Made by a program: the position numbers and the translations under genes. The notes under the pieces were generated by a model, which did no database searches, was not told the DNA's origin, and was given only the letters and a program-made list of their open reading frames with translations. A stretch of 64,000 nucleotides of DNA. It comes from a virus. The stretch covers positions 100,098 through 164,097 of the IMG/VR virus record IMGVR_UViG_3300023208_000004. One strand, written 5' to 3'. Within the stretch, counting starts at the first letter, position 1, and each line of letters begins with the position of its first letter. This document shows, in pieces, positions 4,401-36,424 of the stretch.

Positions 4401-7400
4401 CTTTTTTCAACATCTCTAACTTGAGTTCTAGTTTCTACTATCTCTTTTCTTTTTGCTACCATTTTCGCTTCTGCTAATTGTCTTTGACTTTCTGCATTGT
4501 TAAAATCTGCGCGAGTAACTGATGCTGCTCTGGCTTGTAAAGCTGCATGGCGCTCATCTTTAGCTTTATGAAAGGCTCCCCTACTTTCTATAACTTTTTT
4601 ATTTAACATTTCTAAACTGTCTTTTAATTTTTGAGTGCCATCAAGTAGCCCTTTTACGTTCCCTAAAGAATTGACAAACATAGTCAAACCAAACAAACCA
4701 GACGCTCCAACGCCCCCAATTAACCCATCATCTGCGAAATTCGGAATAAAACCTTTTGCCCTTCCAGCATTTCTTGGGTCAAGACCCTTGCTTAAATAAC
4801 GATTTATTCCTTGATATCCACCAATGGGTTCGTCCCTTTTATTGGCGACTCCAATTCCGAGTGGATTACCAGTTGAAATTAATTTCTTATTAGAGAATGC
4901 ATAAATTTGAGAATATGGGAGTCCAGATTGTTTTTTCTCTCTGTTTATCGCTTCAGAAACTCCGAAGCTTGGGATATAACCAAAACTTAAAGATGGAACA
5001 TTTTTTATTCCAGCAATTTGAGCAAGAGTAAACCTATGATTTCCGTCGGAAATTTCTCTATGATTTTCTGGAAAATCTCGCACGGAAATAGGATTCTTTT
5101 TTAAAAATTGATAAAGCTTTTTTTTGTTTGTTTTAGAAGAAAATAATTCTCCAATGCCAGATTTTGTAATCTCACCATCATAATCAAAGCCTATATAAGA
5201 TAACAAGTTTTTCAAACCTTCAGTATGTGGACGATTAGCTTGAGATAGTGTTCCTCCAGACTCAAGGAGCTTTTTTATATTAAAAACTTTTGAAAAACTA
5301 GGAATAAATCCACGAGAAAAAGGAATAAACAAAGAGCCAGATAATCCCCTCGTCTTAAATAAATTACCGTCTCCTTCAGCAAATGGAGCCTTGATTCCAG
5401 TAAATTTTTGGGCTCTTAAAATATTAGTTAATTCGCGGCCCGCCAGTTGGATAAGTTGTAATTGTTCCTCGCCAGAAGCATTTTTAATTTTTGCTGCCAG
5501 ACCTTTTGGTAACATATGTTCGTATTTTTTATATAAACGAACAATATCAGAGTATTTCCCTAGTTCAAGAATTTTATCTGTCTCAGACAGTTTTTGAGAA
5601 ATGACATTTTTGTTATAAAGTTTGGCGATTTTTTCATTATCAGTAAAATTACCTTGTCCTATGACGGCGACCAATTTATTAGCGACTCCAATAGAATTTC
5701 TTCCCAGATTTTCAGGAAGAGTTGGGCGACCAGAGCGAGTTCCTCTAAAAACTGTTGGGCCGCTTGTATCAGGGGTAAAACCACCCGCCAAACTTAATAA
5801 CCCTTGATTATGGCCGTATTTTTTCGCAAACTTTTTGGCGGACTTAACGAATTGTTCCATATACTGTGGGTCCGATTCTTTAACGCCTTTCTTCGCTAAA
5901 ACCTCTTTCAGCCAACGGCTTTGAAAGACGTTTCTTCCCTTGAAGATTAAATCTTGAGCAAAATTTGGAATATAGCCCAAAGATTTCATTATTCCTCCAC
6001 GATGGGAGTCGGCGTGGATTAGCGTAGCAGTAATTTCAGATTTACCTAACCTAGCAATTGCTTGGATATTTGCAATGGCGTCGTCATTTAAGTGATATTC
6101 GCCGCCCTGCTTTTCTTGTAGTCTTTTTAATAATAGGGCTTTTTTTTGTGCTGAATTTAATTTTGTATAACCGGGAGAATTTTTCCCTCCAGTATTTTTA
6201 ATACGACCAATAGAGTTTATTCTAAGGTCATTAAACATATCTCCAACGCCGATTACCTTCTTAGGGAATAGACCAAGTTTAGTAAGACGATTAACAATTG
6301 CGGCCCTGTTTTCTTTTGAGCTTCTTGCTGTTAGGACTTCTACTTGTTTTCCAATCAAGCCCTCTCCATGAGGTGTTAGTTTAGAGCTAGGATGAAATAT
6401 AGATTTTTCAGGAGTAAATGTGTCCGCATAGCCGACTTCTGGCCCATAGGTTAAAAGAGTTTCGTCCAAGTCCTGAAATACTCTTTGAGCAAAATTCGGG
6501 ATATGACCCAAAGAAGCTAACCCAATTCTAAAATTTGTATAGTTTCCATAGGCTCCTGCATTTTCTGAACTTTTCTCGAAAGATTTTGTATTGAAGCCAT
6601 GTTTATCAAGAAAGCTCCTTACGAATTTTATACTGCCAAATTGCGCCCTGCTATTTAATTCTTCGTCGGCGTTGAAACTCGGCATATCAATACGGATTTG
6701 CTTGTAGCCCATTTTCTTGAGCATACCCATATTCACTTTGAAAGCTTGATAAGCGTCTTTTGCGTTTCTAATGGTTCTTAGGTCTATATAAGCTGGCCTG
6801 TTAGCGGCACTTGTCTCTCTTGAACCGAACTTTGTTTGTCCGTAAACGGCTTTGAGCCCAGAGACTAACTTGGAGTTTATTTTTGTTCCAAAGTCTGCGG
6901 TTAGCTTTGTAGAATAAGAGTATGCGCTAACTCCTCTGTTTGCTATGCCTCCACCAGCTTGAAAAAACATACTACCTAAGCTTTGGTCAATTCCAGATTC
7001 TACATTTGACAAATTAGGATTTGTATATGAACGAACTATATTTGGGCGGCGCTGCGCTTGTCTGATAAAATTAGATAGCTCATCTGCACCTAAAGTTCCC
7101 CTGCGGCCTATTGTTGGAACTCTCACTCCTAATTTAGATGCTGCGTATAAGAACAACTCGTCCGATAAGCCAATTCCTTCTTTTAATTTTTCGAGAATAC
7201 TTTGTCCATTTGGCAAATTAGCACAGGCTTGTGTTACTTTTTCTATAGTTTTTTGAGAAGCGAAATTAGGGATATAACCGCTTGCTGCGAGCATTGGCGC
7301 TCTTGAAGATTTATTTAACAAACTAAGACTCGATACTCCCAGTCTGTCTTTTAGAATTTTAGCCGCCATGCTTTTTCTTGCGTCGTCAGAGTCGGAAGAT

Positions 7401-14805: not shown

Positions 14806-15290
14806 TATCTTCTATAAAATTTAGGAAAATTATTATGACTTTCTGTATCGTCTCCAGCGACTTGCAATGGCGTTGCATCTCCAAGAATAAAACCATTCAC
14901 CAATTTATAAAGTTCGTCAGATTCTTGTTTTTTGAGAGATGTCAAGGATTTGATAACTTCATTCTTGTTGACCATTCTTACTGTAGCTCCATCGTCTGAA
15001 ACTTCTATAACCGAGTTAGATTCAAGCGCCAATATTCTCGCTCTAATTTTTGAGTTGAGACGATGAATTGAATACATTTTTTTCAAAATAGCGGCGGCTT
15101 TTTCTGAAATTTCAACCCCATTTTCATCAAGAACCTCCAAAGTAACTTCATTAATTTGAAAGTTAGTAAAAATCAAATCATTCAATTCTCCTATTTTGTT
15201 TCTGACCCAGTATGCAATAGCTGGGACGCTCAAATCGGATGGTTCATCAAGCTCTTTAAAAATTTGGTCGGCAATTGTTACAACTTTCAT
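14805..15290 (-). CDS. Head-tail connector/adaptor protein (putative)
   Basis: 161 residues. The N-terminus MKVVTIADQIFKELDEPSD, followed by helices and an internal beta region, resembles the helical adaptor proteins (gp6/gp15-like) that bind the portal ring. First of the neck cluster reading toward the tail; five-base gap from the upstream gene. Moderate confidence from layout and pattern. Confidence 0.6.
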   Translation of the reverse strand: MKVVTIADQIFKELDEPSDLSVPAIAYWVRNKIGELNDLIFTNFQINEVTLEVLDENGVEISEKAAAILKKMYSIHRLNSKIRARILALESNSVIEVSDDGATVRMVNKNEVIKSLTSLKKQESDELYKLVNGFILGDATPLQVAGDDTESHNNFPKFYRR

Positions 15291-15295
15291 AATTT

Positions 15296-15634
15296 TTAAT
15301 ATGTGACCTCTGGATTTACTGATACGACCCCTTTGAAAACTTTAAATGCGCCAGTGACATTGCCACTAAATACTTCTATATCATAGACAAATTTACCTAC
15401 TGGCAATCCCGCCGTCCCAGTAGCATTTAAATTCAGGTCAATTAAACCACTGACATAAGAACTATGGATGGATGGATTTAAATTAAACAATACTCCGCTA
15501 GAACCGTATTGGTGGCGGATAAAACCACTTGCGCTGTGATTAGTTAAATTCAAAGCGTTTCCAGCAGAATCTACGCCAGTAAGTCTATTGGTGTAAAATT
15601 CTCCTTGATTAATTGTTAAGTTTAATAGTGTCAT
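15296..15634 (-). CDS. Small Ig-like virion protein
   Basis: 112 residues starting MTLLNLTINQGEFYTNRLTG. It has an NLT...GxFxxxLTGVDSAGNALNLT pattern and ends VFKGVVSVNPEVTY. This matches a small beta-sandwich family common in large marine phages, where it lies near neck or fibre genes. It probably decorates the virion or links fibres. The exact role is unknown. Confidence 0.65.
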   Translation of the reverse strand: MTLLNLTINQGEFYTNRLTGVDSAGNALNLTNHSASGFIRHQYGSSGVLFNLNPSIHSSYVSGLIDLNLNATGTAGLPVGKFVYDIEVFSGNVTGAFKVFKGVVSVNPEVTY

Positions 15635-15660
15635 GTTACACTAGTAATTACACCCCAAAG

Positions 15661-16335
15661 CTAAAACATACCCGTATTAAGTGCTATCCTTTTCCAGAAA
15701 TTGCCGCTCGTGCAAAGATATAAATAGTTCGAATCAAACGCCGCGTCTCCTTTTATTCCAGAGCTATATGACCCAGTAATTGTAGATTCTCTAATCTTTG
15801 TGCCGGTTATAAATCCTGATGGGTTCGATTTTTCATACAAAATTCCCGTTAAGTCACTTGTAACATACCCGTTTGGATTTTGTTCACGAGGATAAAATAG
15901 ACCAGTAGTTGTTCCTGTCCAAGATTTGATGGAATTGATTCCAGAGTCAAGATTAGAGCCAGTTAATATTAAACTACCAGAGAGCGCAACACCAGACATT
16001 GACAATTCATAAAATCCTATAACCCGCTCAGACCCTACAAATGCTTGAGAAAAATAACCAGTTCCAGCGTCTATCTTAAAATTTTTGCCAGATAAATGAA
16101 AATCAAATATAGGTGCTGAAGTTCCAAATCCCACTCTTCCATTAACGAAATCATAATAAAGTTCGGACCCCGCCAAATATCCGCTTTTATTAAATTGAAT
16201 TTGTTGATTTGTTCCGCTGGCAGGAGTTTGTCTAAATCCTGTGTATGGATTTATAACGTCAAGAATAAAACCAGAGATTTCTGGTTTGTAAATTTGTTCG
16301 ATTTGAATTAAATTTGCTCTACTCATGCTCCGCAT
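15661..16335 (-). CDS. Fibre-type virion protein
   Basis: 224 residues, rich in Gly/Ser/Thr/Asn. It contains a segment of the type GRVGFGTSAPIFDFHLSG that recurs in phage fibres and tailspikes, and ends in short YLCTSGNFWKRI strands. The N-terminal 35 residues may anchor it to the virion. ATG at 16335 is used; a second in-frame ATG follows three codons later. Confidence 0.65.
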   Translation of the reverse strand: MRSMSRANLIQIEQIYKPEISGFILDVINPYTGFRQTPASGTNQQIQFNKSGYLAGSELYYDFVNGRVGFGTSAPIFDFHLSGKNFKIDAGTGYFSQAFVGSERVIGFYELSMSGVALSGSLILTGSNLDSGINSIKSWTGTTTGLFYPREQNPNGYVTSDLTGILYEKSNPSGFITGTKIRESTITGSYSSGIKGDAAFDSNYLYLCTSGNFWKRIALNTGMF

Positions 16336-16364
16336 TTTATTACACAGGAGCCGGTATTGTTAGA

Positions 16365-16721
16365 TTATTTACCTTCGTCAAGGATTGCTTGGACTTCTTT
16401 TGATATTTTTTTAGGCTTCTTTGGTTGTTGAGGAGGGGCTCTAAATGAAGCTACGTGTTTTTTGAATTCCTTCATTAGTCTATCCCTCATAAGAGAGAGA
16501 TTATCTATTGCCACAATACCTACTTTAATAGCGTGCCTATGAAGGTCTGACCTGCTTGCCTCCATTAAGAATTGGTCATATTCTTCTTCGTTCATCGTCC
16601 CGTATTTTGATGTCCCATCATCGCCCCAAACTTGCTCTAATGTTTGTGGGACAAATTTTACAGCCTCTTCATCCTTCCCGTGAGTTTGGCGAATTGATTC
16701 TAGGCTTTTCTTTTTTGGCAT
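16365..16721 (-). CDS. Small capsid-adjacent protein
   Basis: 118 residues, highly charged, with a Pro/Lys-rich tail (PPQQPKKPKK). The DLHRHAIKVGIVAIDN...LMKEFKKH segment is a pattern I associate with conserved small proteins next to capsid genes in large phages; function unknown. GGGAAAGGAAAG upstream of the ATG provides a ribosome binding site. Confidence 0.7.
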   Translation of the reverse strand: MPKKKSLESIRQTHGKDEEAVKFVPQTLEQVWGDDGTSKYGTMNEEEYDQFLMEASRSDLHRHAIKVGIVAIDNLSLMRDRLMKEFKKHVASFRAPPQQPKKPKKISKEVQAILDEGK

Positions 16722-16773
16722 AAACTTTCCTTTCCCTTATTAGACTATGATAATAATATCGCCACGTTCTGTC

Positions 16774-16810
16774 TAAAAAAACAGAAAGGGAGAGAATTTC
16801 TTCTCTCCCT
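16774..16810 (-). terminator. Rho-independent terminator after the major capsid gene
   Basis: On the minus strand AGGGAGAG and CTCTCCCT form an 8-bp stem followed by TTCTGTTTTTTT, 30 bases past the capsid stop. Confidence 0.88.
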
Positions 16811-16840
16811 ATCTTTTGATTTTAAAAGTTGGTAGCGTAA

Positions 16841-17959
16841 TTAGACTACGATACCTGCAACTGCGCGAGCGTCCAAGCAAACACGACCTTCTTCAAGGAA
16901 TCCCCAGAAGCCAGCCTTGTCAACCCTCGAAAGATTGAACTGGTCATCTGGCATAACTCTGAATGTCCCACCGCTATCCGCTTGACGAGCCACTGGGCGC
17001 ACAAACGCTCCACGAGAGTTGTCAATACCGACAAGAATTTCGTCCGTGCCTGCTCCAGCCCATGAACCGCCACTTGAACCGGGAACGCTATTTCCAGCCG
17101 TAAATGAATGGAAAAGAACGTTGTATTTCTTACCAATACCAAGTTCAACGAGTTGATTGATATTCACACCGAAGATACCTTGCATACCAGCATTCTTCCA
17201 TACTTCCATCTTGAGTCCTTCTGGAAGGTTTTGGGCCGTATTAGCCGCGCTTGTATCAACCGGATTGAATGCAAAGGCGCGAATCTGAGCCTTAATTTCT
17301 GGACTTACATACAAGTCTGTTGGGCCATTGCTATAAACCCCATCTGGAGTATTACCAGAATAAGATTCATTAAGACGCACTTCACGAACCATCAAATTGT
17401 TCAAATCGGCAAGATTAAAACTATTTGCTGTGCCAGCGGCAATTACGTGCTTGAGAGCCGCGCCGCCCTTTGGAGTTGTTGAAGCTTCTGCGAGAGCCTT
17501 TAGAATAACCGCCCAACCGTTCTTTTCTTGTTTGATAAGAACTTCGTTAAGCAAACGTTCTACAGCTTTGCTGACAACATCAAGACGATGTTTGCGAGCA
17601 TAACGCTTATTGAAGGAAACCGCGCTATCGAGACGATAGGTTGCGATTTTCATTTCCTTAACGCCTTCGATTTGGTTGGTTGGTAAACCACCAGCCATGT
17701 TTTGACTCCAAACGGTTACATAACCATCTTGTTCGCCATAATACAAATCAAGAGGATAACTTGGGGAGTCATCTTCGTCAAATTCAACATTTGAGAAGAT
17801 GGAACTTACAGTTCCCTTGGTCATAAGAACCTTTTGAATCACCGGGCCAAGCCACGCGGCGAGCGCTTCTTGAGCTTCCATTGATGCTTGAAGATTTCTT
17901 GAACCGATTGCTTCGACTAGAGCGATTTGCTCTGGTGTTTCTTTTAGCTTGAAATTCAT
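16841..17959 (-). CDS. Major capsid protein (HK97-fold, putative)
   Basis: 372 residues. It lies after the prohead protease/scaffold and decoration genes and before the neck genes. The size, the N-terminal helical arm (EQIALVEAIGSRNLQASMEA) and the later segments RLNESYSG, TDLYVSPEIKAQIRAF and EILVGIDNSRGAFVRPVARQ match HK97-fold major capsid proteins of environmental phages. It has its own optimised leader and terminator, as expected for the most abundant virion protein. Confidence 0.93.
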   Translation of the reverse strand: MNFKLKETPEQIALVEAIGSRNLQASMEAQEALAAWLGPVIQKVLMTKGTVSSIFSNVEFDEDDSPSYPLDLYYGEQDGYVTVWSQNMAGGLPTNQIEGVKEMKIATYRLDSAVSFNKRYARKHRLDVVSKAVERLLNEVLIKQEKNGWAVILKALAEASTTPKGGAALKHVIAAGTANSFNLADLNNLMVREVRLNESYSGNTPDGVYSNGPTDLYVSPEIKAQIRAFAFNPVDTSAANTAQNLPEGLKMEVWKNAGMQGIFGVNINQLVELGIGKKYNVLFHSFTAGNSVPGSSGGSWAGAGTDEILVGIDNSRGAFVRPVARQADSGGTFRVMPDDQFNLSRVDKAGFWGFLEEGRVCLDARAVAGIVV

Positions 17960-18572: not shown

Positions 18573-20009
18573 TTACTTAATTTCAAATCCGTCATCTTTT
18601 AGGGCGTCTTTCCATTTTTCTGCTTTGTTTTTGTCTGCTACTGAAGAGTTGGCAAGGGCGGCTTTCTTTTTCTCTGCATTGTCCATTGCGTTATCTAATG
18701 CATCAGACGCTTTTGAGTCTTTTTTAGCGTTTTTCTTGGCCTCCTCATCATCCGCTGCTTTCTTAGCGTCTTCATCAGTCTTTTTCTTTGCTGCCTTTGA
18801 TAGAGGCTTTAGGAAAACTTCCATATTCTTTTTCCATGAAGCAAAGTCTTCATCTTTGTCTAAGACTTTGATTTGAGAAGCCAAAACTTGACGAATTTCA
18901 TCTGAAAGTTCATATTCTGCTTCAACCGACTCCATACGAGAATTAAATTGGACCACTTTTGCGCGTTCAGCTTCTTGTTTTTCAAAGGCTTCGACCTTTT
19001 GTTTAAGAGTATTCAATTCGCCTTCGACTTTAGTTACGTTTTCTTTTGCTTTTTGGGCCGCTTCTAAAGATAGCTTATGAGCTTCTTTTTCAGATTCATA
19101 TTGCTTGGAAGCTTCCTTAATTTGTTCGGCAAGGAATTCTGTTATAGCGGACGCGTTGATTTGTTTTAAAGTCTCGTCGGTAATATCTTGAACTTTAGTG
19201 ATTTTCATATCTCGTCTGTTTTGATTTACATTAAAATCTTGGGATTGTGAAATATTTTTTTGAGGTAATTGTGTATTTTGAGAAGAAATTCCCTTCACCT
19301 CTGCGGCGGGAGATTCTGTTAGACCTATACCCAAAGGCAGCACTTCTCCGACTGGTTGACGATAAACTTTTTGACCATTTATCTCTCCAGAGCCTCCAAA
19401 TGATTTTAAATGTTTAGATATTTCGTCACAATCTCCAAGTAGGGGAACGCAATCCTCCAAGTTCTTAGAGGAAGAGCCTGCGCTTGTGCTTACAATTTTA
19501 AAATCATCAAAACCAAGCTCCCAACTCGCGGAAATTGACTGAAAACTCTCATTAGCTGGGTCTGTAGAATCTTCTATTTTCGTCACCACGTCAGGATTTA
19601 CAATTCTCCATAAAACACCGCCCAAAGTGATATTAAAGGGCTTCTTTGAATCTTTAATATCTTCAGCTTTAAGAGGTAAATCGGAACCAAATTCACTAAA
19701 ACCGACATTCAAGATAACACCAATAACATTTTTTCTATTATGTTCTATGTTAATTGGTTTATTCACAAAATAGTTTGCTATTGAAAGGGCTGTCTCAGTG
19801 TCAATTACGTCTCCATTTTTATTTATACGATTGACTACAAAGGCGTTAAATGCAATTGGCAATAAATCATAATTTTTTGACACATCAACGTCTGGAATAA
19901 AATTAGCAACATCAAGGAATGATGCCATAGCTAAGTATTTATCTTTTTCTTCTGAAACCAATGGTCTAAGTAAAGAGCTGAACGAAATTTTAAATCTAAA
20001 ATCTTTCAT
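18573..20009 (-). CDS. Prohead protease fused to scaffold domain
   Basis: 478 residues. Residues 1-200 look like a phage prohead serine protease, with a candidate catalytic His at NIEHN (H90) and a candidate Ser in SFQSISASWELG (158-162). After a Gln/Asn/Ser-rich linker (225-265) comes a Lys/Glu/Ala-rich coiled coil (268-478) typical of a scaffold. An in-frame ATG at 19208 (residue 268, MKITKVQDITDE) lies exactly at the start of the scaffold part, so a separate scaffold could be made from an internal start, as lambda does for C and Nu3; its ribosome binding site is weak. The protein lies directly upstream of decoration and capsid genes. Confidence 0.85.
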   Translation of the reverse strand: MKDFRFKISFSSLLRPLVSEEKDKYLAMASFLDVANFIPDVDVSKNYDLLPIAFNAFVVNRINKNGDVIDTETALSIANYFVNKPINIEHNRKNVIGVILNVGFSEFGSDLPLKAEDIKDSKKPFNITLGGVLWRIVNPDVVTKIEDSTDPANESFQSISASWELGFDDFKIVSTSAGSSSKNLEDCVPLLGDCDEISKHLKSFGGSGEINGQKVYRQPVGEVLPLGIGLTESPAAEVKGISSQNTQLPQKNISQSQDFNVNQNRRDMKITKVQDITDETLKQINASAITEFLAEQIKEASKQYESEKEAHKLSLEAAQKAKENVTKVEGELNTLKQKVEAFEKQEAERAKVVQFNSRMESVEAEYELSDEIRQVLASQIKVLDKDEDFASWKKNMEVFLKPLSKAAKKKTDEDAKKAADDEEAKKNAKKDSKASDALDNAMDNAEKKKAALANSSVADKNKAEKWKDALKDDGFEIK

Positions 20010-20017
20010 ATATTATA

Positions 20018-20533
20018 TTATATTAACGAATCAAGCCTTGCTAAAATTTGCTTTTTTAATTCTTGTTCGTCATCAAGATAAAGGTTTAGAAAAGTTTTAC
20101 AACTATTATCTAATTTAAAAGCAACAATATCTCTTTTAGCAGAAGCAAAGTCTTCGTCTAAGATTTGGAGCCTCATTTCTGAGAGGGGTAATGAAGTTTT
20201 GTTCAGTCTTTTGGCAATACCAGTTAGATTATTTTCTATAGCTTTTAGATAAGAGTTTAGGTATGCCAATGAATACTCTAACAATGGAATAGTAGAATTT
20301 ACTTCATTTTTCCAAAGCTCTTCCGCACGAATTAAAAGAGATTTTAATTGAGCAAGACTGACCCTTTTATTGTTTTCAGAATTATGGGATTTAACCTTTG
20401 CGTCCAAGCAAGCGACAATTTTAGAAGATAATGATATTGCCGAACATTGACATTTATCTTTTAAAGTAGAACAATTCACACACAGGTCAATCTGTGACGC
20501 CTTTGTATATTCAAATTCAAAAAGATTGTTCAT
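20018..20533 (-). CDS. Unknown helical protein with N-terminal Cys cluster
   Basis: 171 residues. The start carries CVNCSTLKDKCQC, a possible zinc site, followed by long amphipathic helices. It is 8 bases upstream of the prohead protease gene and 41 bases after the PSD1 gene. Function unrecognised; probably a head-assembly or phage-specific factor. Confidence 0.7.
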   Translation of the reverse strand: MNNLFEFEYTKASQIDLCVNCSTLKDKCQCSAISLSSKIVACLDAKVKSHNSENNKRVSLAQLKSLLIRAEELWKNEVNSTIPLLEYSLAYLNSYLKAIENNLTGIAKRLNKTSLPLSEMRLQILDEDFASAKRDIVAFKLDNSCKTFLNLYLDDEQELKKQILARLDSLI

Positions 20534-20574: not shown

Positions 20575-23298
20575 CTAATTAATGAAAACGAACTCATTCC
20601 CCAACAACAGGGTTTGCGAGTATTTTGTCCAAGCATTTAGTTTATTTTTAAAATCTTTTAAAGGCTCATTTACGAATGCTGTTCCTAACTTAATTTCTAA
20701 TTCTGCTGGTAAGCGTTGATAGACGATTTTATATAGATAAATTATTTTTTCCTTATCTGTCTTGAGAGCTTCAAAATCTTTTGAGCTTGTGATTGCTACG
20801 GAACTTTGGATAACCAAATCTCCGTTCATTAAAAACAGCGCTTGTTTAGGAACTATCGTGCTAAAACGTTTTCCAGTTGGCATTTCTGGGGTTGCCATAT
20901 CAAAAGTTGTAAAAAGGTCAGGTAAACGGCCCCTATCTATCAAACCATAAACGCTTCTTTTATACACGTCTGGACGCATCAAATCTACTGATTGTCCGCC
21001 GCCAACGAAGTCTAGCCTTCTACTAACCATCAATAAAGAGTCCCTCATTGATTCAAAATCCAATCTAATCATATTCATTTTCCAATACAGGGAATTTTCT
21101 TGGTCTTGAATTGCGTATTTTGTATTGTTTTTTGATGATTGTTGATAAGTGCTAGACATTACTATAAGTTTGTGAACATATTTCGTTGACCAGCCGTGCT
21201 TGATAAAGTCATTAGCTAACCAATTTAATAGATTCAAATGTTTAGGCTTTTCAGATTGAGTTCCAAAATCGTCAGGAGAATTGACAAGTCCCACCCCGAA
21301 ATGATGTTGCCATAATCTGTTTACATAGACCCTCGAAGTTAATGGATTTTTTGGGTCTGCTATTGATTTTGCCAACTCTAATCTACCGCTGCCATTTGTA
21401 TAAATATTATTTGTCGGAGAAAGGACTTCGAGAAAACGTCTTGGAACAATAGACCCACGAGAATTAGGGTCGCCCTTTATAAAAACTGGCGAATTTTGCG
21501 CCGTCGGCTTATCATAAATGGCCATTGCTCTAGGGGTAGCTGCTGGATGTGATAATTCGAGGGTGACTAATTTACCTTTTTCTCTTCTTAAATCATTGTC
21601 ATATCTCATTGTCTGATTATTGTCAGACAGAAAACGAGCAAAATTTTCTCTTGTAAATTCAAGGGGTCCACTATTCTCAAAAATTATTTCATAAAATTTC
21701 TTTTCTTCGGAGTCGGAACTTTTTTGATAGCGTTTTTGAGAATCTAAAACCGCAGCTTGATACCCATTGCATACTTCTAAAAGAGTATTGGCATTTTTTG
21801 TATATCTAAAAATATATGAATGAATTGTTTTTTCATTTTCTTCTATGTATTTTTTGAATTCAACTCTAAAGTCATTCGTTATTTTAATAGCTTTAAGATA
21901 TGGAGAATAAATTGACGCCTCAATTTCTTGTTTTTTCGTTGTCCTCATGGCGTCAGTCCATTTTTTAATCATTCGAGGATTTAGGGAATTAGTTCTTATA
22001 AAATCTTGCTTTCCGTCTTGCTTTACTAAATCTAGCAAATAGTTGCCGTATAACCATTTTGAGGTATTGGTTATGAAACTTAAAAATGCCTCATTATATC
22101 TTTTGGTGATAAAATCTTCAACTTCTTTTTCTATTTTTGATTTTTGGGCTACATAGTCTGGAAATAGATTTGGGAATCTGCTTTCTGAAATTATTGGTTT
22201 TTCTTCAGGAATTGTGCAACTGTTTAATATGCCATGCAGCGCATAGTAATCTTTAATAGTGATAGCGTCAAATTTATGGTCGTGGCATCTGGCGCAAACA
22301 ACAGTTGAGCCAAGAAAACCCTTTGTGATTACATCAATTCTATCATCTATAACATCATTATTGTTGTTGGAATTTTTTCCCAGAGTCAAGAATCCAAGCG
22401 CCGCCAAAGATTTTTTGTCATTTGGTTTATATAAATCGGCAGCAAGTTGTTCTATAACAAATTCATTAAATGGTTTATCCTCATTAAAAGAAGAAATTAC
22501 ATAATCTCTATAAGTATAAGAATAAGTATATCTTCCTTCGGTGTTTGCTCTAATTGAACCAGAGGTGTCTGCATACCTAGCGACATCTAACCAATGTCTC
22601 GCCCATCTTTCTCCATAAAGAGGAGATTTTAGTAGTTCATCAACAAGATTTTCGTAAGCCTTTGGAGATTTGTTTTTAACAAAAGATTCCACTTCTTCAT
22701 AAGTCGGAGGAATGCCTAACAAATCAAAATATAATCTTCTAATCAAAACTTCTTTGGGGGCCGATAAAGAGGGTCGCAGATTCTTCTCTTCTAGTTCTTT
22801 TAGTATAAAATTATCAATAGGGTTACTAATCCATCTGGATGACTTTACTTTTGGAATTTGCGCGTCTGGAACCGGTTGATATGCCCAGTGATTTTTCCTG
22901 TCTTCAACGACTGAAAAGATTAAATTCGTGCCGCTTCTTGGGTCTGGAGCGCCATTCTTAATCCATTTCTCAAAATCAGCTAAAACATAATCTGGAAGCT
23001 TTTCATTTGGAGGCATCTGCAAAGAATTATCCTTATAAGATAAAGCTTTTAAAATTAAAGATTTACTCAAATCATTCGGGACTATGGCTGGGCCAGTATC
23101 GCCGCCCTTAATCAAACCATCCTTTGTATCTAATAAAAGCCCACCTTTTATTTTTTCAGCAGTTTTGCTGTGGCAGCGATAGCAATTAGAAGATAAAATT
23201 GGTCTAATTTTTTGCTCGAAAAAAGAATAATCTTCTTTCTGAGCGCCGAACAAATTAATACTTAAAAAGATTAAAAATGTAAATATCCATCTTGCCAT
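20575..23298 (-). CDS. PSCyt1-DUF1549-DUF1553 (PSD1) cytochrome-like exported protein
   Basis: 907 residues from ATG 23298, giving a clean signal peptide (MARWIFTFLIFLSINLFGAQ); an in-frame ATG at 23325 would spoil it and overlap the previous gene. A planctomycete cytochrome C domain has a CYRCH haem site (C39/C42/H43) and candidate Met ligand M95 in LQMPPNE. DUF1549 (about 155-350) has FDLLGIPPT, GERWARHWLDVARYADT and a second CxxCH (C335/C338/H339). DUF1553 (from about 620) has SRVYVNRLWQHHFG, DFGTQSEKPKH and STYQQSS. The family is abundant in Planctomycetes and Verrucomicrobia, of unsettled function. It follows the DUF1501 gene by one base. Its composition matches the surrounding phage genes. 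Confidence 0.95.
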   Translation of the reverse strand: MARWIFTFLIFLSINLFGAQKEDYSFFEQKIRPILSSNCYRCHSKTAEKIKGGLLLDTKDGLIKGGDTGPAIVPNDLSKSLILKALSYKDNSLQMPPNEKLPDYVLADFEKWIKNGAPDPRSGTNLIFSVVEDRKNHWAYQPVPDAQIPKVKSSRWISNPIDNFILKELEEKNLRPSLSAPKEVLIRRLYFDLLGIPPTYEEVESFVKNKSPKAYENLVDELLKSPLYGERWARHWLDVARYADTSGSIRANTEGRYTYSYTYRDYVISSFNEDKPFNEFVIEQLAADLYKPNDKKSLAALGFLTLGKNSNNNNDVIDDRIDVITKGFLGSTVVCARCHDHKFDAITIKDYYALHGILNSCTIPEEKPIISESRFPNLFPDYVAQKSKIEKEVEDFITKRYNEAFLSFITNTSKWLYGNYLLDLVKQDGKQDFIRTNSLNPRMIKKWTDAMRTTKKQEIEASIYSPYLKAIKITNDFRVEFKKYIEENEKTIHSYIFRYTKNANTLLEVCNGYQAAVLDSQKRYQKSSDSEEKKFYEIIFENSGPLEFTRENFARFLSDNNQTMRYDNDLRREKGKLVTLELSHPAATPRAMAIYDKPTAQNSPVFIKGDPNSRGSIVPRRFLEVLSPTNNIYTNGSGRLELAKSIADPKNPLTSRVYVNRLWQHHFGVGLVNSPDDFGTQSEKPKHLNLLNWLANDFIKHGWSTKYVHKLIVMSSTYQQSSKNNTKYAIQDQENSLYWKMNMIRLDFESMRDSLLMVSRRLDFVGGGQSVDLMRPDVYKRSVYGLIDRGRLPDLFTTFDMATPEMPTGKRFSTIVPKQALFLMNGDLVIQSSVAITSSKDFEALKTDKEKIIYLYKIVYQRLPAELEIKLGTAFVNEPLKDFKNKLNAWTKYSQTLLLGNEFVFIN

Positions 23299-23299
23299 A

Positions 23300-24691
23300 T
23301 TATGCGATGATGTCTTTGACAACATTGCCGTGAACGTCTGTTAGACGGAATTCGCGGCCATTGTAATTATATACAAGTTGAGTATGGTCAAATCCAAGTA
23401 GCGCTAATATTGTAGCGTGCAAGTCGTGAACGTGGACTTTATTTTTTACAATTTTAGCTCCAAAATCGTCAGTTTGTCCATAGACAGTTCCCCCCTTTAT
23501 TCCTCCACCAATTAAAACAGAGCTAAAAGCCTGACTCCAGTGGCCTCTTCCAAATCCATCTTTCCCACCCTGACCATCTCTTTGAGGAGTTCTTCCAAAT
23601 TCGCCACTCATAACAATAAGAGTGCTATCAAGTAGTCCTTTTTCTTTTAAGTCTGCAAGAAGAGCGGCAATTGGCTTATCAACCTGATTCGCCGCGCTTC
23701 TTAAAGAGCGAGAAAGTCCATCGTGCGTGTCCCATCCACCCGTGAACACTTGAACAAATCTTACGCCTCTTTCTACAAGCCTTCTTGCTAGCAGCATTTG
23801 CTTGCCTTGAGCCGTGTCTCCAAATTTTTCTCTTGTTTCTTTTGACTCTTTTGAAATATCAAAGGCGTCGGTCGCTTCAGACTGCATCCTAAATGCGACT
23901 TCAAAAGATTCTAGTCTTGCTTCCAAATCGGCCTCTTTTTGTAGGTTTTGGCCATGAATAGTATTTAGTTTTTGCAGCAAATCTAATTGCTTTCTTTGTT
24001 CTTCGATGGAAACATATTGAGATTTAATATTTTCAATCATTTTATCTACAGAATTCAAAGTCGTATTTACCGAAGTTCCTTGATAAACGCCCGGTAAGAA
24101 AGCTGAACCAAAATTTTGCGTGCCTCCAAGCGGAATCCCCCCCGGCCTTAAAGAAACAAAGGCTGGCATATTTTGATTAATTCCGCCTAATCCATAACAA
24201 ACCCATGCGCCCAAACTTGGTCTTACGAATCTGGCTGACCCAGTATTCATAATCAATGTTGCTAATTCATGGGCTGGAATATCGGTGTTCATTGACCTAA
24301 TAACAACAGCATCATCAATAAATTTACCAATATTTTCAAAAACTTCACTAACTTCAATGCCACTTTTACCCATCTTATTAAACTTGAATGGAGAACCACA
24401 AGCCAAGCCATTCATTCCAGAACCAAGTTGTGAACCGTCAAGTTTTATGAGTTCTGGTTTATTATCCCAAGTATCAATATGAGATTGTCCGCCTCCGAAA
24501 AAGATATGAATAACCCTCTTGGCTTTGGCAGGAAAATGTGAAGATTTTGGTGAAAGTCCGTCGGCCTGAGCAAGAAGCGGTGCAAGACCCAACATTCCCA
24601 TTCCCATACCCATTGTTTGCAAAAATTCCCGGCGAGTTTTTAGAAAGTCTTTTGCAGATAATTCGTTTTGGTTGCAAAATAATTGTTTCAT
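23300..24691 (-). CDS. DUF1501 Tat-exported protein
   Basis: 463 residues from ATG 24691; an upstream in-frame ATG at 24715 would overlap the previous gene. The N-terminus has a twin-arginine signal (TRREFLQTMGMGMGML, RR at 20-21, then ALA-type cleavage). DUF1501 hallmarks follow in order: FFGGGQSHIDTWDNKP, IPAHELATLIMNTG, GGWDTHDGLSRS, MSGEFGRTPQRDG, GRGHW and HDLHATILALLG. The family is distantly related to alkaline phosphatase/sulfatase folds and is usually encoded beside a PSD1 gene in PVC bacteria, as here. Both products would be exported by the host, so they are unlikely to be virion parts; role unknown. Confidence 0.95.
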   Translation of the reverse strand: MKQLFCNQNELSAKDFLKTRREFLQTMGMGMGMLGLAPLLAQADGLSPKSSHFPAKAKRVIHIFFGGGQSHIDTWDNKPELIKLDGSQLGSGMNGLACGSPFKFNKMGKSGIEVSEVFENIGKFIDDAVVIRSMNTDIPAHELATLIMNTGSARFVRPSLGAWVCYGLGGINQNMPAFVSLRPGGIPLGGTQNFGSAFLPGVYQGTSVNTTLNSVDKMIENIKSQYVSIEEQRKQLDLLQKLNTIHGQNLQKEADLEARLESFEVAFRMQSEATDAFDISKESKETREKFGDTAQGKQMLLARRLVERGVRFVQVFTGGWDTHDGLSRSLRSAANQVDKPIAALLADLKEKGLLDSTLIVMSGEFGRTPQRDGQGGKDGFGRGHWSQAFSSVLIGGGIKGGTVYGQTDDFGAKIVKNKVHVHDLHATILALLGFDHTQLVYNYNGREFRLTDVHGNVVKDIIA

Positions 24692-24704: not shown

Positions 24705-25166
24705 TTACACTCCATTCAAGAAGACAAGTTCTGTGTCTTCGACGATTGGTTGAGAAATCTCAAATAAGTTATTTACTGCATCCACATCTCCAACCGGAGT
24801 TTCTCTCATCACAAAATCTGCCCCAATACCTGATGAACCAGACGAACCGCTGGTTCCAGACGTTCCATCTACTCCACTGGTTCCCGAACTGCCACTTGAA
24901 CCAGACGAACCGCTAGAACCTGATGAGCCACTTGAACCAGACGAACCGCTGGTTCCGTTTATGCCACTTGTCCCATTTACTCCAGATGAACCACTAGACC
25001 CAGAGGTTGAATCTGACCCATTAATTTTATTTGCAAGCTCAAAAATAGTTACTTTTTTATTTTTTTGGCCAGAATTGGCAGAAACATCAACAATTGGTAT
25101 CAAATCTGTATCCGCCATCTCAGACGCAGAGATACTTAGAGATTTGCTTATCTTTAGACCTTGCAT
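24705..25166 (-). CDS. Short collagen-like fibre, C-terminus apparently truncated
   Basis: 153 residues. An N-terminal domain (IPIVDVSANSGQKNKKVT) is of the kind that starts many phage fibres. A Gly-Ser-Ser/Gly-Thr-Ser collagen-like stretch (about 50-115) follows, then RETPVGDVDAVNNLFEISQP...ELVFLNGV and a stop. In related fibres this last part is the first half of a beta-sandwich that continues for about 40 residues after LNG. Here the stop is followed at once by the DUF1501 gene, as if the cargo pair had replaced the fibre tip. Confidence 0.8.
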   Translation of the reverse strand: MQGLKISKSLSISASEMADTDLIPIVDVSANSGQKNKKVTIFELANKINGSDSTSGSSGSSGVNGTSGINGTSGSSGSSGSSGSSGSSGSSGSSGTSGVDGTSGTSGSSGSSGIGADFVMRETPVGDVDAVNNLFEISQPIVEDTELVFLNGV

Positions 25167-25185: not shown

Positions 25186-26532
25186 TTAGTTACACCCAGA
25201 AACATCAGAAGGACAATCCGAAGACCAAATCATTTTGAATGTCATTGTCAAGTTGTCAAATAGGTCAACATAAGGATATTGCCCAGTAATCGAGCCAGTA
25301 TTATATGTATATGCTCCCGTATTAATAGAAGGCAAAAGCTCCCTTGCTTGTGTGGCAAACAGCATATCAACCAAAGGATAATAGCTGTTAAGTCCTTGGT
25401 TGTAAGCCAAAACTAAAGATTTGAGTCTCTGAGGAAGCCCTTCTGCATCTACAAAGTTATTTTGAACACTGTTCCAACTAACTTCTCTTACCAGAGAGCG
25501 AGTTCTTCCAGTAACAACAAAACTTAAAGGGGTTATTGTAATATTTTCAGCTTCATGTTCAAAAACTTCTGTATTCGTTTCTTGCCGAAAATCGTCCTGA
25601 TTTGGAATTGGAACAAAATCTTTGCGAATATTAAGAATGGACTGTTCTACAGCAGAATTATCCTGAGAAAATAAATCGTAATGATAAGTGCAGATACCAC
25701 TTCCAAATGGCTTGGCTCCAACCCCGTTATAGTATGGCTTAAATTGGGATGTAAGAATTTTCCCGCCCGAAAAGCTATTCACTAAAAATTGATAGCCGTC
25801 GGTTGATAAATAACAAACAAGCTTATCCTTTGTTGTAGATGGTTCCATCGGAGCCCCATATGGTTCTGGAATAAAACTTTCTCCATCCTCTTCTTCAGCG
25901 CCACCAACGAACATATCTTCTCCAACAATTAATTTAAGACCATGATGGACTTGAGAATATCTTCCAGACAACTTTCCCCATAAACGACAGGTAGAAGGGT
26001 CTTGATTTACTTGACTTGCATCTATAACGTTTGCGAAGTGTCTTATTCCAGTTGGAACAGTAATACCCAAACGATAAGATATAACAGAATAGTCTCCAGA
26101 TGGGATTATAAAAGATTTCAATATCCTAGAAAAAGCATATTTACTATTCGTTCCAGAAGTATCTGGGGAAACCATAAGCTCTTCAATATCTAAAGGCTCA
26201 GTTAAATAGCTTACATCTGGAACTCTCCAACCTCTGAAAAGCCTTAACCCGCTTGTTAACTCATTGTATCCACAAGCGCCTCCAACATAATTATTTAAAT
26301 AAGAATATTCTGGATATGGATATTCAAGTCCAGTTGTGTATAAAGTATTTTGTCCAGTTCCACTTCCAATGGACAAAAACTTAAAAGTATCAGCAAATCC
26401 AGTGCTATAAATGTAACTAAGTCCGGTTGAAGTTATGAAATTATCAAAAAAATCCGTAGTTGAGACTAATTCATCTTTAGAATTAAATACATCAATTTTA
26501 AATTGCCCGCGAAGTTTTATGTCTAGTGCCAT
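25186..26532 (-). CDS. Fibre/virion protein, paralog of the next gene upstream
   Basis: 448 residues. N-terminus QFKIDVFNSKDELVSTTDFF...NFITSTGL...GFADTFKFLSIGSG aligns by eye with the gene at 26544-29204, as does the C-terminus (TMTFKMIWSSDC). Tyr/Gly/Ser-rich and beta-type. Located between portal-side fibres and the cargo genes, it is a probable structural fibre or appendage protein. No catalytic motif seen. Confidence 0.75.
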   Translation of the reverse strand: MALDIKLRGQFKIDVFNSKDELVSTTDFFDNFITSTGLSYIYSTGFADTFKFLSIGSGTGQNTLYTTGLEYPYPEYSYLNNYVGGACGYNELTSGLRLFRGWRVPDVSYLTEPLDIEELMVSPDTSGTNSKYAFSRILKSFIIPSGDYSVISYRLGITVPTGIRHFANVIDASQVNQDPSTCRLWGKLSGRYSQVHHGLKLIVGEDMFVGGAEEEDGESFIPEPYGAPMEPSTTKDKLVCYLSTDGYQFLVNSFSGGKILTSQFKPYYNGVGAKPFGSGICTYHYDLFSQDNSAVEQSILNIRKDFVPIPNQDDFRQETNTEVFEHEAENITITPLSFVVTGRTRSLVREVSWNSVQNNFVDAEGLPQRLKSLVLAYNQGLNSYYPLVDMLFATQARELLPSINTGAYTYNTGSITGQYPYVDLFDNLTMTFKMIWSSDCPSDVSGCN

Positions 26533-33626: not shown

Positions 33627-35477
33627 TTAAATCATCGTGGGAACAAAGGTTTCCTGTTCTTCAACTTGCGCGTTTTGCATATCAAAATAAATTTTGGTGG
33701 CCCAGTTTCCTAGTAAAAGCGCCGTATAATTGTCTTTTCTTGCCCTGTTTTCAGTAGTTTCTCTATTTAAATGAGCTGGTAAATCAAAAGTCTGCATACC
33801 TCTAGCATTAGTTCCGACTTCAATTAAAGCGCACTCTGATTTAGTTAAATCTATCATAGAATCCAAATGCTCAATAAAATCCCCAACTGTATTTACATCA
33901 TCAATAACGCCTTTAATCAAATCGAAATTAATTCCAGAAGTGATAGCTTTATCGAAGGCCATCGCGCTGCCAGCGCTTTTCGATGCAAACCAAATTCTCT
34001 TAAAGTCAATATTTCCCTGTAAATGTTCGTTAGACTTTCTTATAAATTCATTACTACCAAATACTTGCTTAAATACAATCCTTTTGTGTTCCAGATTGTG
34101 CTGGCGTTTGGCTGTTTTTAATTCTTTGGAATAATCTGGTTCGTCTAGGCTACTCTCAAATGTCATCCATTTTAAATTTAATTTATTTTTAACAAATAAT
34201 TCATGCTCATTTGCTGCGTCAATAAAGTTATAACCAGCGTTATCAATGACAATAAAAACAATATTAAAATGTGTCAACAAATAATAAAAATATCTGATAT
34301 GTTCTTTTAAATCTTTACCATGTTCTCCGTAAGCGTGGACTAGAGTTGATTGTTTATTTTCTTCGTCAAGTTCTAAGAGGGCCATACCAAAGTCGTCAGA
34401 AGTTGGGCTGTTGGAGAAGCTTGGGTCTATCGCCAAAACATATTTTTTGTCAGGAGTTCCCCTTACTAAAGTATGTGGGCTTTGAGAATGTGGGACAGTG
34501 CAATTAAACATTTTTTTCGCAGCAAAATATCCTTCACTTCCGTCTGTAAATCTAGCACAATATTCTCTAAGGAAAACCGCATTAGAAGTGCCTCCAGTTT
34601 CAGCTTCTTTAATAATACTTTGATTTATCATGTGGGCGGGTAGCGCCTCCCAAGATAATTGGGAAATAAAATATTTTGCATTATCTTCTTTTTCTTTTGG
34701 TTTATTTATTTTGCTTATCCATTCACAATAGGTTTCGTAAAGATTTTCAAAAGTGTATGACGCAGAAGAGAGGGCAACAAATCTTGTCGTATTTTCAAAA
34801 ATGATTCTGTCTTTTTCATTTAACAATCTTTCTTTTATTAAAGAGTCTTCTATATTTCTAATTCTAATTCTTTCGTCCATATCTTGTGGAGCAGTTAAGA
34901 ATGGAATAAGAACCGTATCTACAATTTCTTTACTCATTAATAAATATTCGTCAATTAACAAAACATTCGCTCGAAATCCACGAATTTTCTCTCCGTTCAA
35001 TGGAATGGCAACAATAGACCCTTCGTTGATTTTTAATTCATGCAAATCATTTCGTTTAATTTTCGCTCCTAAGACTTGAAAAAATAAAGCCGCGTCCCTT
35101 CTTTCAGATATTTCTTCAATTTTGTTAAAAATAAAACGCGAAGTTCTAAATGTTGGCCCAGCTATAAGAATTTTTGAACCGGGATAGAATATACATTGCA
35201 AAATACAAAAAACAGCAGCTATAAACGTTTTTCCACAGCCACGACCCCAAATACACATACTATAGTTTCTATTTAACATCCCACGTAAAGTAACCTCTTG
35301 GAAAGGGGCGATTTTAATACCAGTTAATAGCTCTACAGTAAAAGTTAAATTATGACGTAAAAATTTAATCAAAGTTAGCCTAGCTTCGTTATCGCTAAGT
35401 TCTCCAACTAAAGTATTTAAATAGACTTCATTTAAATCTTCTAATTCTGTTTCGTATTTTTGAGGACACGTCCACAT
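33627..35477 (-). CDS. terL: Terminase large subunit
   Basis: 616 residues from ATG 35477, two bases after the previous stop; an upstream ATG at 35528 overlaps that gene and is less likely. Walker A GRGCGKT (78-84), Walker B VLLIDE (172-177), motif III-like ALSSASYTFENLY (235-247). The RNase H-like nuclease domain begins KKYVLAIDPSFSN, with D351 the first acidic residue. This ATP-driven motor cuts and packages phage DNA through the portal. Confidence 0.96.
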   Translation of the reverse strand: MWTCPQKYETELEDLNEVYLNTLVGELSDNEARLTLIKFLRHNLTFTVELLTGIKIAPFQEVTLRGMLNRNYSMCIWGRGCGKTFIAAVFCILQCIFYPGSKILIAGPTFRTSRFIFNKIEEISERRDAALFFQVLGAKIKRNDLHELKINEGSIVAIPLNGEKIRGFRANVLLIDEYLLMSKEIVDTVLIPFLTAPQDMDERIRIRNIEDSLIKERLLNEKDRIIFENTTRFVALSSASYTFENLYETYCEWISKINKPKEKEDNAKYFISQLSWEALPAHMINQSIIKEAETGGTSNAVFLREYCARFTDGSEGYFAAKKMFNCTVPHSQSPHTLVRGTPDKKYVLAIDPSFSNSPTSDDFGMALLELDEENKQSTLVHAYGEHGKDLKEHIRYFYYLLTHFNIVFIVIDNAGYNFIDAANEHELFVKNKLNLKWMTFESSLDEPDYSKELKTAKRQHNLEHKRIVFKQVFGSNEFIRKSNEHLQGNIDFKRIWFASKSAGSAMAFDKAITSGINFDLIKGVIDDVNTVGDFIEHLDSMIDLTKSECALIEVGTNARGMQTFDLPAHLNRETTENRARKDNYTALLLGNWATKIYFDMQNAQVEEQETFVPTMI

Positions 35478-35479
35478 AC

Positions 35480-36424
35480 TTATAATAAATTTGTATCGTA
35501 TAATAGCTGTAAATCGGCTTTTTTCCATAAGCCCTTGCTTGTTAATACAATTTCAGCTATTCTTGCGGCCTCGGTTCTACCATCAACGAATAAAAATTGT
35601 ATATCTTTAAATTGATAAATTAATTCTCTCATATTTCGTAGGACAAATTCGGGAGAGGCTTTTACATTAGAATATGCTGGTCTTAGGTATTTGAACCTTG
35701 CTACATTATTAAAGTCACTTTCTACGAGAATAAGCATTCCCGCGCCAACTTCTTCTGCTTTTTTTAATTCTTTTTTAAATCTTTCGAGCCCGCCGCTCAT
35801 TGTCCCATAAAAATCTGCTAATGATTTTCTTTCTATAAAACTATTTTCACAAAGCTCTTTATTATCCAAAGTATAATCTCCAAATTTAAGCGCGGCTTTA
35901 ATGATTGGTAAATTATTGAAGCAGAGTGGGGCTTGTTCTCTTGTGTCTATATAAATAGAAGAATTATTTATTGCTGGACTTTTAGGTAATTCTATTTTTT
36001 TATATTTTGCGGGAACACCAATCTGTTCGCATAAATCATAATAGCTCCCAAATAGTTCGTCGAAATAATTAATAGATGGAATAAGTAATGACCGTAATTC
36101 TACTTGACAAGGGGCGAACTTTAATTGTTTTTTTTGTATTCTTCTTTCCAGTAAATTTTTACAATATGTTTTTGCAATTTCTTTATCTTGCTTTCTAAGC
36201 CAGTAGCGCAAGTTATTTTTATTGTTAAAATCATCGTTAAAATATTGGTCTTTAGTTTTGAAAGCGATAATTTTTTTATCATGTAAATCATATCTCGGAA
36301 AGTAAGTTTGATAGTAAGAAACAATCCTATGTTTGTGGACTCTTATATGTTTGTGTAAAGATTCTTCATTTGTAAATACCTCTTTACAAATTTGACAAAC
36401 TAGAGTTGTGCATACATTATCCAT
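35480..36424 (-). CDS. C2H2 zinc finger-ERCC4-type nuclease
   Basis: 314 residues. An N-terminal C2H2 finger (C10, C13, H26, H30) is followed by a basic helical region and a C-terminal ERCC4/XPF-type nuclease domain: IYIDTREQ (157-163), FGDYTL (181-186), IERKSLADF (197-205). Its start overlaps the preceding gene by 8 bases and it abuts terL. Possible roles are concatemer resolution or cleavage at structured DNA before packaging; inferred. Confidence 0.88.
   Translation of the reverse strand: MDNVCTTLVCQICKEVFTNEESLHKHIRVHKHRIVSYYQTYFPRYDLHDKKIIAFKTKDQYFNDDFNNKNNLRYWLRKQDKEIAKTYCKNLLERRIQKKQLKFAPCQVELRSLLIPSINYFDELFGSYYDLCEQIGVPAKYKKIELPKSPAINNSSIYIDTREQAPLCFNNLPIIKAALKFGDYTLDNKELCENSFIERKSLADFYGTMSGGLERFKKELKKAEEVGAGMLILVESDFNNVARFKYLRPAYSNVKASPEFVLRNMRELIYQFKDIQFLFVDGRTEAARIAEIVLTSKGLWKKADLQLLYDTNLL

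Follow-up and report, generated by a model that had tools for sequence, protein, structure and literature searches.

The stretch of viral DNA considered here (the window, 64,000 nucleotides) comprises bases 100098–164097 of a linear IMG/VR virus record of 164,097 bp, IMGVR_UViG_3300023208_000004, and carries at positions 20575–24691 two adjacent minus-strand genes of a kind usually paired in chromosomes of the Planctomycetes–Verrucomicrobia–Chlamydiae (PVC) group of bacteria. The upstream gene (23300–24691) encodes a DUF1501 protein of 463 residues that matches Pfam model PF07394 over positions 1–390 of 390 (E 3.5e-134, 448.3 bits against a cut-off of 27). The downstream gene (20575–23325) encodes a protein of 916 residues, here called PSCyt-PSD1 or PSD1, in which the domains PSCyt1 (PF07635; 1.3e-14, 54.9 bits), PSCyt2 or DUF1549 (PF07583; 2.3e-74, 250.3 bits) and PSD1 or DUF1553 (PF07587; 3.7e-75, 252.9 bits) follow one another in the expected order. 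All of these matches lie above the curated Pfam cut-offs, in agreement with the families named in an initial annotation of the window, and neither protein matched a PHROG family at E 0.001.

The open reading frame (ORF) of DUF1501 reaches 24715 through an upstream ATG, and the second methionine, at 24691, is preferred as the start because the copy in a related contig, L003 (also G001; IMGVR_UViG_3300020193_000059), begins there. With the PSD1 start placed at the tenth codon, an ATG at 23298 that gives a protein of 907 residues, the two genes are one base apart, as initially annotated, and the same spacing is seen in contig L142 (8017/8019). The DUF1501 N terminus contains a twin-arginine motif, TRREFLQ, whose second arginine is present in 24 of 24 main-clade phage rows and whose first is present in 21 of them, with lysine in the other three. 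The PSCyt protein has a hydrophobic N terminus and two CxxCH motifs, C48–H52 and C344–H348, both of which all 25 phage-collection rows retain, including one row from the probably bacterial contig L031. The proposal that both products are exported is thus consistent with their N termini, the two signals having been judged by eye and from motifs only.

The pair had been described as cargo between a fibre gene and the prohead-protease side of a phage morphogenesis operon. The same-strand operon is confirmed; the flanking functions are less firm, since the fibre-like gene upstream (25186–26532, minus strand) has a weak PHROG tail-fibre match (4.2e-5) and the protease is named by position. The fibre-like gene occurs in relatives whether or not they carry the pair, and between it and the pair lies a minus-strand collagen-like ORF of 153 residues (24705–25166; Pfam Collagen 7.4e-9) that has no counterpart in G001. 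Downstream, an ORF of 171 residues (20018–20533, minus strand) has tblastn matches in L003, L141, L052 and L054 and corresponds to part of longer ORFs at the same site in pair-less relatives. It is followed by a 478-residue head-region gene (18573–20009, minus strand), a protease or scaffold by position, and by further head-region genes, all on the minus strand. The labels prohead protease, portal and capsid are positional throughout, there being no Pfam or PHROG match for these window proteins.

Three related contigs carry the pair in the same operon. G001 has the same genes as the window on both sides of the pair, except for the small collagen-like ORF, and its proteins share 92% (DUF1501) and 78% (PSCyt-PSD1) amino-acid identity with those of the window at a synonymous divergence (dS) above 1. 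L142 has the window's order of fibre-like gene, DUF1501, PSD1, one ORF, 478-residue homologue and capsid-position gene, with 56% and 38% identity for DUF1501 and PSD1, respectively, and in L141 the pair stands in reversed order, surrounded by four other genes of the window's operon. In L036 (G024), DUF1501 follows the terminase, the portal-position gene and one further gene, and the contig end cuts there, leaving the partner outside the contig. A homologue of the 478-residue gene was present in seven of the 16 loci compared (L003, L142, L141, L052, L053, L054 and L048). L052, L053 and L054 have both the fibre-like gene and this homologue but no pair between them, the two flank genes standing side by side in L053 and other ORFs intervening in L052 and L054; in the more distant L048, the portal-position gene leads to the homologue. 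L040, L041, L042 and L051 end before the pair site and are uninformative on its presence, and a scan of IMG/VR with the capsid-position protein found G001 only.

This synteny decides against an assembly chimera or misbinned bacterial DNA, an origin that we consider very unlikely and the least probable of those weighed here. One of the 39 further contigs described below (G019/L031, with a terminase-like match below cut-off) is probably bacterial because of its guanine-plus-cytosine (GC) content of 0.58 and its branching with a Gemmataceae metagenome-assembled genome (MAG), but the pair of the window has the same flanking genes in G001 and L142, and its composition is phage-like. The GC contents of the pair genes are 0.41 and 0.35, and their relative synonymous codon usage (RSCU) correlates with that of the other phage genes at 0.87 and 0.85, compared with −0.46 and −0.57 in the one pair of bacterial homologues examined. 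Codon use is nevertheless soft evidence because the capsid-position gene itself (window 16841–17959; with a higher GC, 0.46) correlates at only 0.28, perhaps as a consequence of high expression.

In order to place the pair among viruses, collections of phage sequences were searched. A tblastn search of 50,697 INPHARED phage records with each pair protein gave no match at E 0.01, while profile-guided scans of IMG/VR found at least 26 contigs with DUF1501 and at least 31 with PSD1, 18 of them by both scans, or at least 39 distinct contigs with one or both genes besides the window's record. These counts are lower bounds because candidates had to match short peptide patterns, and the 39 contigs represent fewer viruses because several are near-duplicates (e.g., L024/L032 and L144/L147). 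In addition, BFVD holds one UniProt entry named DUF1501 protein from an uncultured Caudovirales phage (A0A6J5M742), which is the best BFVD match to the window's DUF1501 (E 4.4e-8, template-modeling (TM) score 0.41) and is likewise annotated in phage sequence, although it shares only 14% identity with it. The initial statement that no phage-encoded example was known therefore holds for INPHARED and is too strong in view of IMG/VR and BFVD. A listing of DUF1501 among phage genes in PMC5418858 is a CDD match of a 61-unit entry, apparently a hypothetical protein of 61 residues; the INPHARED search being empty, it was not counted.

The two genes travel together in these contigs. Among the first 39 records searched, 27 had DUF1501 and 19 of these also had PSCyt2; in the eight with DUF1501 alone, the gene was cut by a contig end or lay within about 1.3 kb of one. 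At 29 of the 31 PSD1 loci, DUF1501 was at most 1.2 kb away on the same strand, and contig ends truncate the remaining two (L149 and L160). Elsewhere than in the morphogenesis operon, the pair adjoins rIIB and a clamp loader (L027), rIIA (L019), UvdE (L004 and L015), ATP-dependent DNA ligase (L014 and L163) or thymidylate synthase (L139). The phage nature of the contigs is least supported for L144–L147, which have few PHROG matches among their neighbours, and for the short contigs of clade C (see below). In the 190-kb record L145, a gene for a papain-family cysteine protease (5530–6582) lies directly upstream of the pair. L014, L015, L018, L019, L156 and L161 carry extra divergent DUF1501 paralogues, with as many as three DUF1501 genes in one contig; most of these paralogues cluster by themselves in the tree as a deep group.

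These surroundings bear on whether the two proteins could be virion components, for instance fibre- or head-associated enzymes active at entry. In the window, G001, L142 and L141, their location between fibre- or portal-position genes and those of the head would agree with such a role, but virion proteins assembled in the cytoplasm would not be expected to need export-type N termini, the recognized neighbours in other contigs are non-structural (in L145 a collagen-like fibre gene is 4 kb away), and relatives possess the same operon without the pair. We regard this explanation as improbable.

Phylogenetic trees, all unrooted, were built from 112 DUF1501 rows and 82 PSD1 rows. Both omit L013, L029 and L036 (two that duplicate G001 and G002, and a fragment). 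The DUF1501 tree also excludes the rows of nine near-duplicate contigs together with eight further rows that were near-duplicates or had long branches, and the PSD1 tree excludes those of four near-duplicate contigs and two rows with long branches. The two trees agree on four phage clades. Clade A contains seven phage rows (the window, L003, L139, L140, L141, L142 and L156) and has Shimodaira–Hasegawa-like approximate likelihood ratio test (SH-aLRT) values of 86 for DUF1501 and 98 for PSD1; clade B (L144–L146) lies next to two Chthoniobacteraceae MAGs; clade C (L014, L015 and L035) is close to Opitutae MAGs; and clade D includes L004, L017, L019, L021, L025, L027 and others. When Chthoniobacteraceae paralogues picked by similarity were added (the near-duplicates L147 and L164 not being added and L149 and L160 also being omitted from the paralogue-added tree), clade A stayed whole with SH-aLRT values of 96 and 97, and clade B grouped with Chthoniobacteraceae rows only, at 99 and 100. 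For DUF1501, an approximately unbiased (AU) test on a selection of 12 phage and 35 bacterial rows rejected a single common phage clade, the log-likelihood being 284.5 lower (p-AU 1.57e-107); the tree used in this test has at least four label changes on starred branches, and the branch uniting clade A is supported at 94/92.

Pairing and gene order were compared with bacterial loci. In 63 of the 80 bacterial loci fetched, the two genes are adjacent on one strand, and some of the others are cut by contig ends; the usual pairing in PVC chromosomes is borne out by these numbers. The window's DUF1501 shares no more than 55% identity with any of the 80 best bacterial loci. A near-identical copy on a chromosome is thus absent from this set, in a protein comparison in which bacterial genomes were not searched for the phage flanks. 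DUF1501 comes first in only 9 of 67 adjacent bacterial pairs, compared with the window, L003, L139, L140, L142, L144–L147 and the clade C contigs, in all of which it comes first; within clade A, L141 and L156 have the opposite order. It also comes first in seven of seven Chthoniobacteraceae paralogues belonging to the window's wider DUF1501 clade, and in 9 of 15 of the same-strand pairs fetched overall. Gene order thus agrees with the trees, and the two genes therefore seem to have been transferred together.

The window's clade groups with Verrucomicrobiota rows in both protein trees, which suggests a verrucomicrobial host for clade A, with taxon names taken from the MAG records; the host group suggested by the initial annotation agrees with this. 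In two of the nearest bacterial genomes, both Chthoniobacteraceae MAGs, 67 and 66 PSCyt2 matches were counted, including one per genome below cut-off, and such hosts therefore appear to invest heavily in this chemistry. The possibility that the phages drew on one particular host paralogue is weakened by the window protein matching several Chthoniobacteraceae paralogues about equally well, the best ten showing 44–51% identity over the N-terminal part. A MAG titled Akkermansia muciniphila (L091) also carries the pair, and according to PMC4960237, A. muciniphila is without the DUF1501 module; the name of this MAG may be wrong.

Both genes are under purifying selection. Between the window and G001, the ratio of nonsynonymous to synonymous rates (dN/dS) is 0.024 for DUF1501 and 0.098 and 0.131 for the two parts of PSD1, and 0.059 and 0.335 for the capsid-position gene and the 171-residue ORF used as comparison; these ratios are rough because dS is near saturation (dS > 1). 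In DUF1501, residues S/T78, D81, H149, D329, H331, E372, H392, D431 and H433, candidates for a two-metal ligand set and nucleophile, are conserved with single exceptions, counted without six divergent paralogues and L031. The phage rows keep nearly all of the conserved histidines and aspartates, again with single exceptions and with gaps in incomplete rows.

The AlphaFold2 model of DUF1501 (mean predicted local distance difference test score, pLDDT, 84.5) matches alkaline-phosphatase-superfamily enzymes in Foldseek with an E-value of 5e-8, although the TM score is only about 0.36. In VIA-align, superposition of the model gives Z scores of 20.4 against PafA (280 residues, 3.8 Å), about 20 against nucleotide pyrophosphatases/phosphodiesterases (NPPs) and about 19 against sulfatases, and the predicted fold is that of the alkaline phosphatase/NPP/sulfatase superfamily. 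The formylglycine signature of the sulfatases, C/S-x-P-x-R, is missing in the window's protein, and membership of sulfatase family S1 was rejected: CxPxR occurs anywhere in none of the 112 rows, and [CS]xPxR occurs within the first 160 domain residues in one (L123, bacterial). The PSD1 model has a pLDDT of 86.7. The family profile of PSD1 matches FoxE cytochrome chains in the PSCyt1 part (E 3.5e-7), and residues 33–129 of the model show a weak structural match to hydrazine synthase (Z 5.6).

Taken with the pairing, the trees and the conserved residues, these features lead us to favour, with somewhat better than even confidence, the view that the pair is host-derived auxiliary metabolic cargo, acquired more than once by large, probably lytic phages from Verrucomicrobiota-like (PVC) bacteria, exported, and acting as it does in the host. 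The bacterial pairs, which come from Planctomycetota, Verrucomicrobiota and Acidobacteriota, have the same Pfam domains, pairing and conserved residues, and the phage pairs differ from them in being phage-borne, AT-rich and usually single in a contig, apart from the extra DUF1501 genes in some, whereas the two MAGs hold 66–67 PSCyt2 matches per genome. The record contains phage genes, the pair is placed among bacterial sequences in the trees, and relatives lack it, as would be seen for an auxiliary gene. Among auxiliary metabolic genes of phages, psbA of cyanophages and pmoC of freshwater phages offer a comparison; the present genes resemble them as host-derived metabolic genes under purifying selection in a phage without an integrase, and are unlike them in that what is kept as a pair here is a cytochrome protein and a hydrolase-fold protein, both of exported type as judged from their sequences.

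According to this proposal, the phage would make DUF1501 during infection and the protein would leave through the twin-arginine translocation (Tat) pathway, while PSCyt-PSD1 would leave through the Sec pathway and receive two c-type hemes from the host. Both would then work as a unit in the periplasm or at the cell surface, as the same pairs would in the host, with DUF1501 performing a hydrolase-type step on a substrate, probably a glycan, and PSCyt-PSD1 a cytochrome-type oxidation whose electrons would pass into host respiration. The phage copy, matured by host machinery, could in this way keep one such reaction running after host expression stops, so that energy and carbon supply would be kept up during phage replication. 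That the heme may have to come from the host follows from a search for 5-aminolevulinate synthase (TIGR01821), which gave no match in 14 records, some of them partial.

The same absence weighs against the metabolic proposal, as do several other points. The proposal draws on context because the sources consulted give no reaction for either family. The PSD1 model has no match in the PDB at E 0.001 or better, and the neighbours of the bacterial relatives (M29 and S9 peptidases, DUF7133/GDSL and several proteins without a match) point to no single substrate. The clades were named after the trees had been seen, and the trees may include back-transfers from phages to bacteria alongside gains by phages. 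Finally, some copies are broken: in G001 two abutting frames stand in place of a single PSCyt-PSD1 frame (L003:11600–11770), DUF1501 of G025 is split, and both genes of G026 are in pieces. Sequencing error or decay, which are indistinguishable here, may account for these. The split frames would also suit a transient passenger, that is, host DNA carried without benefit, but strong purifying selection over dS > 1, the conserved residues and the retention of pairing in several phage clades make this highly improbable, a little more so than a role in the virion.

A more serious competitor, which we hold to be possible though considerably less probable than the metabolic proposal, is surface remodelling, in which the exported pair would alter a cell-surface glycan late in infection in the manner of a receptor-destroying enzyme, letting progeny escape unhindered or keeping other phages from adsorbing. 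In five records (the window, G001, L142, L141 and, with DUF1501 alone, G024), the genes belong to the morphogenesis operon, and late expression is therefore likely there. The predicted DUF1501 fold is common to glycan sulfatases and phosphodiesterases, and both products have export-type N termini. On the other hand, the pair is elsewhere found near rIIB and the clamp loader (L027), rIIA (L019), UvdE (L015) or DNA ligase (L014 and L163), with no recognized late operon; the need for a cytochrome in receptor removal is not obvious; and the sulfatase signature is absent.

Returning to auxiliary metabolism as the favoured interpretation, we consider it slightly more probable than its contrary that large PVC phages repeatedly capture, keep and exchange an exported hydrolase-cytochrome pair, which would constitute an envelope redox module and a new class of auxiliary gene directed at a gene family strongly amplified in the likely hosts. 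PMC5615132 describes many PSCyt genes in freshwater Verrucomicrobia, often adjoining sulfatase genes and some with carbohydrate-binding modules, predicts their products to be periplasmic or cytoplasmic and gives PSCyt function as unknown. PSCyt-PSD1 and DUF1501 proteins are thus numerous and unexplained in these bacteria, judging from that paper and from the two MAGs analyzed here. PMC4452313 and PMC4960237 credit Kamneva et al. 2012 for the DUF1501 module in PVC bacteria, passages of PMC11495043 and PMC4982196 hold nothing on function, and no discussion of the pair in phages was found in searches of the open-licence literature. The presence of the pair in several phage clades implies that it may give a rapid, self-contained benefit, and the short phage version may therefore be the simplest to express and assay. 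Its recurrence in distantly related large viruses suggests that viruses gain from running host envelope chemistry during infection and that phages may influence how these bacteria turn over glycans, and the pair could serve as a marker for phages of hosts from which few phages have been isolated.

The phage nature of the window's record is evident from matches to DnaB helicase, DNA polymerase III alpha, class II ribonucleotide reductase, rIIA and large terminase. The terminase gene (33627–35528, minus strand; PHROG terminase 7.6e-22, Pfam Terminase_6N 3.2e-6) served to find related phages. The terminase profile phrog_2 matched 16 of 32 records, 12 of them at E < 1e-20, and Terminase_6N (PF03237) was less sensitive, matching 10 of 27 records with five above cut-off. 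rIIA was matched in 6 of 14 records. The integrase PF00589 had no match in 12 large records (the window's and 11 others), and a search for the gp23-type capsid PF07068 gave no match anywhere, controls included, and is thus uninformative. L005 has, in addition to its rIIA gene (15010–17208), a short second rIIA-like piece at 5123–5413 with two in-frame stops.

Further features of the window were observed outside the pair region. An ORF of 2811 residues at 1463–9898 has no annotation. A scan for promoters and terminators yielded 46 and 7 sites, compared with shuffled means of 38.6 and 8.4, and nothing usable. In the right part of the window (43500–64000), GC climbs from about 0.33 to 0.40–0.48, and all six tRNA genes of the window are found here. 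ORFs of at least 100 residues with ATG starts cover 49% of this part, compared with 93% to its left; reading through TAG or TGA raises the coverage from 49% to 56% and 68%, respectively, and no suppressor tRNA was found when such readthrough was considered. This part is perhaps a small-gene early region that continues at the start of the record, where the first 10 kb have a GC content of 0.43.

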